A DNA stretch of 36,886 nt from Propionivibrio sp. (GTDB lineage Bacteria > Pseudomonadota > Gammaproteobacteria > Burkholderiales > Rhodocyclaceae). Position 1 is the first letter of the stretch, and the number at the start of each line of letters is the position of its first letter. The notes below the pieces were generated by a model. It was given only the letters and a program-made list of their open reading frames with translations, had not been told where the DNA came from and searched no databases. Of the stretch, positions 1,214 through 3,761 are shown piece after piece. Both the position numbers and the translations under genes were made by a program. The stretch is from the NCBI RefSeq assembly GCF_017995515.1, contig NZ_JAGOIT010000029.1, forward strand, positions 1-36,886. The letters are read 5' to 3'.

Positions 1214-1222
1214 GTGACTCCG

Positions 1223-2230
1223 ATGCATATTCTTGTGACTGGCGGGACCGGCTTTATCGGTTCGCACACCTGTGTTTCGCTGATCGAGGCGGGGCACGAC
1301 GTTACGATCATTGATGACCTTTCCAACAGCAGCCGTGAAGCGCTTGATTGCGTCGAGCAGATCTCCGGCAAGCGCCCTGAGTTCTTTGAAGGCGACGTGC
1401 GCGATCGCGAATTGTTGCGCAAGATCTTTGCGCAGCGTCCGGTTGATTCGGTGATTCACTTCGCCGGGTTGAAGGCGGTGGGCGAATCGGTTGCGCAACC
1501 TTTGCGCTACTACGACTGCAACGTTGGCGGTGCGATCGTGTTGTGCGAAGAGATGGCTGCGGCTGGAGTCAAATCGATTATTTTCAGCTCGTCGGCCACC
1601 GTCTATGGCGATCCGGCGTCGGTGCCGATCCGCGAGGACTTCCCGCGCTCGACTACGAACCCATACGGCGCGAGCAAGCTGATGATCGAGGATATCCTCG
1701 CCGATCTGTACAAGTCCGATCCGGAATGGCGAATTGCTCGGCTGCGCTATTTCAATCCGGTTGGCGCGCATCCGAGCGGTTTGATTGGTGAGTCGCCGAG
1801 CGGCATTCCGAACAACCTGATGCCTTATGTTTCGCAGGTGGCTTGTGGGCAGCGCGCGCAGCTGAGCGTTTTCGGCGGCGATTATCCGACGCCGGACGGG
1901 ACGGGGGTGCGTGACTACATTCACGTTGTCGACCTGGCCGAGGGGCACGTTGCGGCGCTGAATTACCTAACGCGCGAAGCAGGTCTGCTGACGGTGAATC
2001 TTGGCACCGGCCGCGGCTATTCGGTGCTCGACATGGTGCGGGCGTTTGAGACGGCTAGTGGGCGGCCTGTGCCGTATGCCATCGTTGACCGCCGGCCGGG
2101 CGACGTGGCGGCGTGCTATGCCGATCCGGCGCTCGCTGAGAAACTGCTGGGTTGGAAGGCCAAGCGCGGGATCGACGAGATGTGTCGCGACGGCTGGAAC
2201 TGGCAGCAGAACCTGGCGGCGAAGGTGTGA
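1223..2230 (+). CDS. galE: UDP-glucose 4-epimerase
   Basis: GalE interconverts UDP-glucose and UDP-galactose in the cytoplasm and so supplies galactosyl donors for surface polysaccharide or galactose metabolism. It is a short-chain dehydrogenase/reductase-type protein of 335 residues. The NAD-binding GGTGFIG is at residues 7-13, the serine cluster FSSSATVYG near 121-129, and the catalytic Tyr148-x3-Lys152 in YGASK. The family ending (RPGDVAACYAD, then LGWKA) is present. An in-frame GTG lies 9 bases upstream at 1214, directly after the H-NS stop, but the ATG at 1223 gives the canonical MHILVTGG N-terminus and is preferred. Length and motifs match the family, with no sign of damage. Neighbours Wzz and H-NS support a role in polysaccharide precursor supply. 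Confidence 0.95.
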   Translation: MHILVTGGTGFIGSHTCVSLIEAGHDVTIIDDLSNSSREALDCVEQISGKRPEFFEGDVRDRELLRKIFAQRPVDSVIHFAGLKAVGESVAQPLRYYDCNVGGAIVLCEEMAAAGVKSIIFSSSATVYGDPASVPIREDFPRSTTNPYGASKLMIEDILADLYKSDPEWRIARLRYFNPVGAHPSGLIGESPSGIPNNLMPYVSQVACGQRAQLSVFGGDYPTPDGTGVRDYIHVVDLAEGHVAALNYLTREAGLLTVNLGTGRGYSVLDMVRAFETASGRPVPYAIVDRRPGDVAACYADPALAEKLLGWKAKRGIDEMCRDGWNWQQNLAAKV

Positions 2231-2339
2231 CCTCCCTGATTTTCTCAAGAATTCGCTGGCAGACGCTCAGGCAAAGAAGTCCGCGTAACCCACGTAACCG
2301 CCTAAGGGTGTAATCGAAAGGGTGGGGCGCTACCAAAAG

Positions 2340-2378
2340 CCCCTCTCCCCTAGCGGGAGAGGGGTTGGGGAGAGGGGG
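2340..2378 (+). repeat. Left inverted repeat of the DUF559 unit
   Basis: An outer hairpin, CCCCTCTCCC at 2340-2349 paired with GGGAGAGGGG at 2355-2364, is followed by the inner block GGGGAGAGGGGG at 2367-2378. Its reverse complement matches the right repeat over about 40 bases in the same order. The inner block contains GGAG 8 bases before the DUF559 ATG at 2381, so the repeat provides the ribosome-binding site. Confidence 0.9.
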
Positions 2379-2380
2379 CT

Positions 2381-2752
2381 ATGGAACAACTCGAGTTTGC
2401 CAAGCATCTGCGAAGCCGTATGACAGAGAGCGAGACCCTGCTTTGGCGGCACTTGCGAGCGCATCGTCTGAATGGGGGCAAATTCAGGCGTCAGCAGCCC
2501 ATTGGTCCGTATGTGGTTGATTTCGTGCATTTCGGCGTGCGACTGATTATTGAAGCCGATGGCGGCCAGCATAGCGATGCGCCAAGCGATGAAAGACGAG
2601 ATACGTGGTTACGGTCGCAAGGCTTTACGGTGCTACGGTTCTGGAACAACGAGATCATGACTAACCTGGAGGGCGTATTGTCAAATATCGCGTCGGTGAC
2701 GTCTGATTTCCCCCTCTCCCCCGGCCCCTCTCCCGCAAGGGGCGAGGGGTGA
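2381..2752 (+). CDS. DUF559 endonuclease-like protein
   Basis: This 123-residue protein belongs to the DUF559 family, which has the restriction-endonuclease-like fold related to very-short-patch repair nucleases. An N-terminal helical part (LRSRMTESETLLWRHLR) leads to the putative active site: Asp47 in VVDF, then Glu58-Ala-Asp-Gly-Gly-Gln-His64. A strand-rich segment (GFTVLRFWNNEI) ends the domain near residue 93. The last 13 residues (PLSPGPSPARGEG) are encoded by the right inverted repeat and look like appended repeat translation rather than part of the fold. The family call rests on the ExDGxQH motif and general shape. The substrate is unknown; a role in DNA repair, or in moving its own flanking repeats, are both open. 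Confidence 0.88.
   Translation: MEQLEFAKHLRSRMTESETLLWRHLRAHRLNGGKFRRQQPIGPYVVDFVHFGVRLIIEADGGQHSDAPSDERRDTWLRSQGFTVLRFWNNEIMTNLEGVLSNIASVTSDFPLSPGPSPARGEG
2710..2749 (+). repeat. Right inverted repeat of the DUF559 unit
   Basis: The inner block CCCCCTCTCCCC begins at 2710. The outer hairpin follows, CCCCTCTCCC at 2725-2734 with GGGGCGAGGGG at 2739-2749 around a GCAA loop. It mirrors the left repeat in order and sequence. It is translated in frame as the end of the DUF559 protein, and the TGA stop is at 2750-2752. Confidence 0.9.
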
Positions 2753-2801
2753 GGCGATGGACTCATCCCACCCTTCCGATCGCCCCCGCCGCGCTGGATC
2801 C

Positions 2802-2939: not shown

Positions 2940-3761
2940 ATGGCAACGTACGCAATTGGTGACATTCAGGGCTGTTTCGGTTCCTTTTCGCGCCTGCTTG
3001 AGCGCTGCGCGTTCGATCCGGCGGTCGACCAGCTCTGGCTGGTCGGCGATCTGGTCAATCGCGGCCCGCGCTCGCTGGAGACCTTGCGTTTTGTGCGTGA
3101 TCTTGGTGCGTCGGCGATTACCGTACTTGGCAACCACGATCTGTCGCTTCTGATGGCCTCGGAGGGCTTTGGCAAGCGCGGCAAGGGCGATACCTTCGAC
3201 GATATCCTCAATGCACCGGATCGGAACGAGTTGCTCGACTGGTTGCGGCGGCAGCCGTTGTGTCATGTCGCCGGTGACTATTGCATGGTCCACGCGGGCT
3301 TGCTGCCGCAATGGACGACCGGCGAAGCGCGTCTGCTCGCGGCTGAAGTTGAGCGCGCGTTAACGGCTGATGACTGGCGCGACTTCCTCGCGCATATGTG
3401 GGGCAGCGAACCGGCTGCCTGGCGCGATGATCTCGAAGGTTGGGCGCGCTTGCGCGTGATCGTCAATGCCATGACGCGAATGCGTTTCTGCACGCCGGAG
3501 GGCGTGATGGACTTCAAGGCCAAGGGCGAGGTCAGCAATGCGCCCGAGGGGTGTATTCCGTGGTTCGAGGTGCCGGGTCGGCGCAGCGCCGATAGCGTGT
3601 TGATCACCGGTCACTGGTCAGCGCTGGGTTTGAAAGTGTTGCCCAACCTGCTGGCGATCGACTCAGGCTGCCTGTGGGGCGGGCCGCTGACGGCGGTCAG
3701 GCTGGAGGATCGGGCTGTTTTCCAGGTGCCGTGCTCGAAAGAGGAAATCCGAGCCTGGTAG
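2940..3761 (+). CDS. apaH: Bis(5'-nucleosyl)-tetraphosphatase (symmetrical)
   Basis: ApaH splits diadenosine tetraphosphate symmetrically into two ADP, clearing a stress-linked dinucleotide, and it can also remove Np4 caps from RNA. The 273 residues carry the metallophosphatase metal-binding series: GDIQG at 7-11, GDLVNRGP at 36-43 and GNHD at 64-67, plus the later VHAGLLPQW and TGHWSALG blocks with metal-binding histidines. The length is close to the usual 270-280. No strong ribosome-binding site precedes the ATG at 2940, but MATYAIGDIQG is the canonical start. Its last 65 bases overlap the end of the acyltransferase gene on the other strand. Confidence 0.95.
   Translation: MATYAIGDIQGCFGSFSRLLERCAFDPAVDQLWLVGDLVNRGPRSLETLRFVRDLGASAITVLGNHDLSLLMASEGFGKRGKGDTFDDILNAPDRNELLDWLRRQPLCHVAGDYCMVHAGLLPQWTTGEARLLAAEVERALTADDWRDFLAHMWGSEPAAWRDDLEGWARLRVIVNAMTRMRFCTPEGVMDFKAKGEVSNAPEGCIPWFEVPGRRSADSVLITGHWSALGLKVLPNLLAIDSGCLWGGPLTAVRLEDRAVFQVPCSKEEIRAW

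Follow-up and report, generated by a model that had tools for sequence, protein, structure and literature searches.

Why should a small nuclease-like gene fill the space between two copies of an inverted repeat? The question is posed by a 36,886-nt stretch of DNA from Propionivibrio sp. (assembly GCF_017995515.1, contig NZ_JAGOIT010000029.1; hereafter the window, meaning the whole stretch), in which a gene of the DUF559 family lies between two GC-rich repeats on opposite strands. Our answer, to which we give a probability of about 0.5, is that the locus exemplifies a widespread partnership between DUF559, a small PD-(D/E)XK nuclease, and its cognate triplex/hairpin repeats, which the nuclease would nick and spread in the manner of the repetitive extragenic palindrome (REP)-associated transposases (RAYTs). 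Support for the partnership is good, although there are exceptions, and movement of the repeats by the nuclease is what we infer. The locus reads as follows:

2340..2378, plus strand: left half-unit, with hairpin CCCTCTCCC/GGGAGAGGG and inner third block GGGGAGAGGG; triplex-motif match at 2341-2376
2369..2372, plus strand: GGAG, Shine-Dalgarno-like, within the left half-unit, ATG 8 nt on (direct reading)
2381..2752, plus strand: DUF559 (PF04480) PD-(D/E)XK nuclease-like gene, 123 aa; profile E value 1.4e-39 over residues 2-105
2710..2749, minus strand: right half-unit, inverted; triplex-motif match at 2712-2748; encodes the protein tail PLSPGPSPARGEG

These features agree with a first-pass annotation of the window, which had described repeats made of an outer hairpin and an inner block around the gene, a left repeat that supplies the Shine-Dalgarno sequence, and a right one that encodes the end of the protein and meets its stop codon. 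The repeat arms are 87% complementary over 31 ungapped nt (88% across 39/40 nt in a BLAST self-match), and in each the outer hairpin is joined by an inner GGGGAGAGGGGG block, a third block of purines. The last 13 residues of the protein are encoded by the right repeat (2711-2749), after which comes TGA. Folded as single-stranded DNA, the left repeat reached a z-score of -2.57 (2/200 shuffles equally good), and the right repeat was unexceptional (-1.25; 22/200).

The three-block design resembles that of the BoxC/PIT/TM repeats, which have been known in Escherichia coli since the 1990s and were counted across 262 proteobacterial genomes in a 2015 study (PMC4666352). The formula given there for E. 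coli is CCCTCNCCC-N3-6-GGGNGAGGG-N3-GGGNGAGGG, and an E. coli sequence formed an intrastrand triplex in vitro. All three 9-nt blocks of both window copies fit this formula, with second loops of 4 and 5 nt against the published 3; when second loops of 3-5 nt were allowed, 0/100 window shuffles gave a match. According to the main text of the same study, inverted pairs in E. coli combine two loop types (5/5) and mobility functions near the motifs were not found; no word starting with DUF occurs in that text (PMC4666352).

The PF04480 match of the window protein scores 134.8 bits against a curated cut-off of 20.6, and the Pfam and NCBIfam profiles otherwise returned two matches below cut-off (MTES_1575 and NF007294) and no single-tyrosine (Y1) family. 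D47, E58, D60, Q63, and H64 are invariant among 59 aligned DUF559 sequences. Fold matches and the conserved active-site residues place the protein in the PD-(D/E)XK superfamily, on its Vsr/EDxHD side (AlphaFold model with a mean predicted local distance difference test score of 88).

Similar repeats flank most of the DUF559 genes tested. We gathered 72 loci: three genes in the genome of the window, 29 loci found among 150 family genomes, and 40 relatives, for which the search peptides did not include the repeat tail; L and G numbers are our own handles for loci and genomes. Two duplicates (L053 of L009 and L059 of L036) were dropped from all locus counts, leaving 70, and L034, L057, and L067 were too short, leaving 67 testable loci; L036, whose start was misplaced, was scored as a failure; both repeats are present in its duplicate, L059. 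Inverted similarity between the flanks exceeded all 200 shuffles at 54 of the 67 loci and 95% of them at 63. As a control, among the other open reading frames (ORFs) of 40 of these loci, 3/86 exceeded all 100 shuffles and 13/86 reached the 95% level, so the repeats do not flank unrelated genes as often, an outcome that the first-pass annotation had named as one that would refute its proposal. A phylum-wide draw of 299 genomes added 28 new loci, 14 of which exceeded all 200 shuffles and 18 of which reached 95%.

The association extends to plasmids: repeats of this kind also enclose the DUF559 genes on plasmids of Deinococcus aetherius and Azospirillum lipoferum. DUF559 copies were seen on E. 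coli and Enterobacter plasmids as well. Outside the Proteobacteria, we saw the association on one Deinococcus plasmid and in two Nitrospira metagenome assemblies. Among phages, distant DUF559 matches were found in 2/50,697 records. At L150, L157, L159, and L165 the flanking repeats are longer and include an additional hairpin, which lies between the first one and the G-rich end. They may represent a further class of repeats within this system; the genes concerned come from other families of the phylum, perhaps, as a guess, Alphaproteobacteria. At L176, the NGO0050-like gene region of Neisseria gonorrhoeae, DUF559 is flanked by GAGAGAGGG-variant repeats in the same orientation, with more copies downstream. 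At nine loci from several distant genera (L021-L024, L027, L031, L036, L043, and L063), a gene with the same start, IPATYMRGGTSKG..., lies just downstream from DUF559. We take this gene to be PrpF-like, and its recurrence suggests a conserved position in a propionate operon.

The number of repeats in a genome also follows the gene. From the DUF559 flanks we derived patterns for two consensus types, A and B, and counted both in the 150 family genomes, of which 41 have DUF559 with a score above 90 bits. Five or more copies, types A and B taken together, were present in 27 of these 41 genomes and in six of the other 109 (p = 4e-14). The origin of the patterns in DUF559 flanks counts against reading this at face value, and the comparison was therefore repeated with flanking copies removed, at two per gene (19/41 vs. 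6/109, p = 3e-8), and in a second sample of 299 phylum genomes that has two (G000 and G019) in common with the first. There, at least five copies were found in 43 of the 77 genomes with DUF559 at an E value of 1e-20 or better, compared with 12/222 of the others (p = 3e-20). In the 19 genera of the first sample with genomes of both kinds, the genus means favored the link 16 times, opposed it 0 times, and were tied three times. The built-in control gave 0 for type B throughout the genomes shown; it is invalid for type A, a pattern almost identical to its own reversal, and for the same reason holds only in part for the looser pattern.

Could the repeats be driven by RAYTs? Since the profile PF01797 missed a true RAYT in G141, we repeated this control with NF047646 above its curated cut-off, which counted RAYTs in 41/150 family genomes. 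At least five repeat copies were present in 12/41 genomes with a RAYT and 21/109 without (p = 0.19), that is, no association, and the DUF559 link held within both RAYT strata (9/13 vs. 3/28 and 18/28 vs. 3/81). We rejected a RAYT or other Y1 transposase as the driver, there being no association at five or more copies; when genomes with any copy were counted, Y1_Tnp gave 35/75 versus 21/75 (p = 0.03).

Repeat type and nuclease clade correspond as well. When 97 loci were scored by flank type (L007 being excluded here and from the tree), 43 were A-A, seven B-B, 22 had type A on one side, five had type B on one side, 20 had neither, and none was mixed. In a quick tree of the 97 domains, for which few columns were available, all 12 type B genes fall together to one side of a single branch (support 90), and type changes once along the tree, compared with a mean of 11.3 changes in shuffles (0/500 as low). 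The main type genome-wide is the type at the gene: A outnumbers B in 14/14 A-clade genomes, and B outnumbers A in 12/13 B-clade genomes (the exception being G136; Fisher p = 7e-7). This test covers 27 genomes with typed loci chosen from the 41 (G108 placed by the tree only), without G112, which has both types, and G019, which has type A flanks and 0 pattern copies; with G019 included, the A-clade count is 14/15.

The repeats away from the gene reveal what the basic unit is. In ten stretches, some including a DUF559 locus, isolated half-units paired with their hairpins inside and third blocks outside ("-+") 29 times, compared with two pairs in the opposite order ("+-"). The "-+" spacing was 72-79 nt in 11/17 pairs of G240 and G244, and 38-45 nt in 9/10 pairs of G010 and G121. 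Where half-units were found to the left and right of a type A gene, the order was "+ gene -" in 37/42 cases, and both doublets ("-+ gene -+") were present at 10/53 type A loci. These orders place the gene between two doublets, of which only the inner halves persist in the window. The initial G-run of the third block is longer 3' of the gene in 23, shorter in four, and equal in 12 of the 39 loci with both flanks. The RAYT-like anatomy proposed from the window alone has thus held up: the doublets are inverted, their inner halves lie next to the gene, repeat types are cognate, and copy number tracks the gene. Of the gene/palindrome unit proposed with it, the partnership survives (54/67 loci, copy number) and the unit has to be redrawn: the lone unit is the inverted doublet, with the gene between two of them.

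These patterns suggest a route by which the repeats might spread. When a doublet turns single-stranded, for instance on the lagging strand, both of its arms would fold; the DUF559 enzyme would recognize a folded arm through its hairpin and purine third block and nick it; and from this nick the doublet could be copied into, or relocated to, new intergenic positions, an activity like that ascribed to RAYT enzymes on the REP doublets called REPINs. The repeats beside the gene may in addition serve it locally, as ribosome-binding site and as C-terminal tail. Nicking of the folded arm and transposition by DUF559 are the steps that we infer. A more general statement, which we hold tentatively and at slightly less than even odds, is that DUF559 proteins are dedicated mobilizers of triplex repeats (BoxC/PIT/TM and lineage variants) across the Proteobacteria, making up a second REP system, PD-(D/E)XK rather than histidine-hydrophobic-histidine (HUH), in which type and clade co-diverge.

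Several observations weigh against the partnership reading or its mobile part. Cutting, excision, or insertion was not observed in the present sequence analysis. The window genome itself has few repeat copies, with two type A matches, one per strand, which is the number expected from the window pair alone (six with the looser pattern). No pattern copy was found in 5/41 DUF559 genomes of the family and 23/77 of the phylum, and 10/28 of the phylum-wide loci stayed below the 95% level, only half exceeding all shuffles; the link is therefore weaker far from the family of the window, or the repeats there have diverged beyond the reach of the test. Conversely, some genomes are rich in repeats without a strong DUF559 match (G322 with 141, G381 with 66, G236 with 59, G343 and G044 with 48 each, and G214 with 42). 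In G044, G322, G381, and G236 the gene may have been lost or left unassembled, or the repeats may have another partner.

Repeat sites also differ between two congeners. In 400 kb each of G240 and G244, ~65 kb aligned in collinear blocks of 83%-92% identity. The repeats at the DUF559 gene are common to both genomes. Four other G240 repeat sites with both flanks in aligned blocks lack the repeat in G244, where the intergenic sequences otherwise differ too; such site differences could be losses as well as gains.

In E. coli, the DUF559 gene ycjD is present in 3,365/5,426 genomes. Overlapping the final codons and the stop of the gene is a partial BoxC-like hairpin, and a full motif lies ~180 nt farther downstream; there is no repeat in the 1.5 kb upstream, the repeats being on the 3' side only, a further point on the negative side. 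That orthologs at conserved loci lack repeats, the second refuting outcome named in the first-pass annotation, did not emerge as a rule: at the one shared locus compared, both G240 and G244 keep them, and at ycjD only the downstream side is occupied. Across 60 E. coli records, the median number of BoxC-like places was 17 (11-25, the ycjD place subtracted) in the 37 with ycjD versus three (1-17) in the 23 without (p = 3e-9), a spread that leaves out 51 E. coli genomes with no match at all. The 2015 study notes 29 motifs in strain 55989 and one in IHE3034 (PMC4666352). The correlation with ycjD tracks the E. coli phylogroups (PMC12817139) and therefore represents few independent events. We rejected the ycjD site as a clean example of an empty site, since an efflux operon is present there in the three ycjD-negative strains whose sequence was read (PMC12817139).

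How do other explanations fare? An unlikely one, which nevertheless accounts for the position of the gene, is that DUF559 is a selfish, homing-type colonizer that targets older repeats of other origin, inserts between them, and spreads by repair. Such a gene should occupy many sites, but most DUF559 genomes of the family have one to three strong genes and the repeat-rich ones have tens of repeats; this argument is qualified by G084, with 11 matches, many of them partial, and by some phylum genomes with seven to 10. Homing onto older repeats also fits poorly with congeners that lack the gene, which mostly lack the repeats (the exceptions being G146 with 11, G130 with seven, and G018 with five).

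Somewhat less probable still, in our judgment, is a maintenance or tolerance nuclease that resolves or repairs repeat structures, so that genomes would keep the gene because of their repeats. The Vsr-like fold agrees with such a role, as do the link of the Caulobacter DUF559 protein VsrA to DNA damage and its predicted part in mismatch repair (PMC12907096) and the genomic instability tied to triplex motifs (PMC4666352). Left unexplained are the position of the gene between repeats at most tested loci and the agreement of the gene-side type with the main type of the genome.

We regard it as improbable that DUF559 is a passenger, with another transposase moving the repeats or the whole unit. This idea draws on a second, weak pair of inverted repeats outside the first:

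2306..2326, plus strand: left outer arm, 21 nt, pairing weakly with 2767-2787 (81% complementarity); resembles the GGGTGCATTYGAAAGTGG... ends of a miniature inverted-repeat transposable element (MITE)
2767..2787, minus strand: right outer arm, the weakly pairing counterpart of 2306-2326

In Gallionella/Nitrosomonadales genomes (those of L004, L005, and L006), a MITE family with GGGTGCATTYGAAAGTGG ends carries varied cargo that includes the DUF559 unit. Target duplications of 9 bp are clear at the copies L091, L099, and L107, the last being a 97-bp derivative that keeps both ends of the DUF559 element and lacks the gene. This MITE is a second, local route of movement for the unit, of which the window shows a weak trace; no clear target duplication was found at the window's outer arms. 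As general mobile ends, the outer repeats were rejected: they occur in 4/10 genomes searched, in one of these through a single match, and their family carries varied cargo; the association of the inner repeats is far wider. Nor did RAYT and Y1, the only transposases tested, associate with the repeats at five or more copies. Chance or composition, by which GC-rich genomes would have G-rich repeats near small genes, can appeal to the low complexity of the repeats and is hardly credible given 0/100 shuffles, neighbor ORFs that are seldom flanked, and within-genus contrasts of 16 to 0 with three ties.

Returning to the window, the unit lies between two genes that we take, from their sequence, to be galE and apaH:

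1214..2230, plus strand: galE-like gene, left neighbor (ORF reading)
2940..3761, plus strand: apaH-like gene, right neighbor (ORF reading)

In the congeners G182 and G160, only a few bases separate galE from apaH where the window has its DUF559 unit, and in G141 this position is taken by a RAYT gene (L124 948-1406; NF047646, E value 3.3e-38). A search of Rfam gave three matches, none reaching its gathering score, and PADLOC gave a single weak DpdF match (E value 0.0056). At 14-101, the window has a tandem array of 9.8 copies of the 9-bp unit GCAGGTCGG, apparently in frame within a presumably Wzz-like gene.

If our reading is right, DUF559, a family with little tested function, gains a role, and the REP way of life arose also with an unrelated enzyme. 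With a cognate nuclease, the spread of BoxC/PIT/TM repeats becomes a question for laboratory experiments in any ordinary K-12 strain, the gene there being ycjD. For annotators, the PSPARGEG-like C-terminal tails of DUF559 proteins would be explained as translated repeats. Among the titles and abstract openings listed by our searches of an open-access library, we found no published link between DUF559 and the repeats.

Among known systems, the nearest enzymes are the Vsr-like DUF559 nucleases (VsrA of Caulobacter, PMC12907096; NGO0050, PDB 3hrl), which share the fold and the conserved acidic and histidine residues; the term "inverted repeat" is absent from the main text of the VsrA paper. Homing endonucleases of the I-Bth0305I type (PDB 3r3p) differ in that the window gene lies between repeats and encodes a nuclease fold only, plus a repeat-encoded tail. 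The BoxC/PIT/TM_ECO repeats (PMC4666352) share the three 9-nt blocks and a tendency of flank pairs to differ in the same region; the window copies are set apart by the 4-5 nt second loop and by a right copy that is part of a gene. The RAYT/REPIN system has palindromes with foot tags GTAG or CGTC (PMC3733652). The window gene falls outside it because no HUH match was found: the DUF559 enzyme is PD-(D/E)XK and not an HUH tyrosine nuclease, its repeats are of the triplex type, and their number shows no link to RAYTs. What the two systems have in common, as far as REPINs are described in PMC3116915, are repeats that flank the gene, dispersed inverted doublets, cognate pairs of repeat type and enzyme, and few genes for many repeats.
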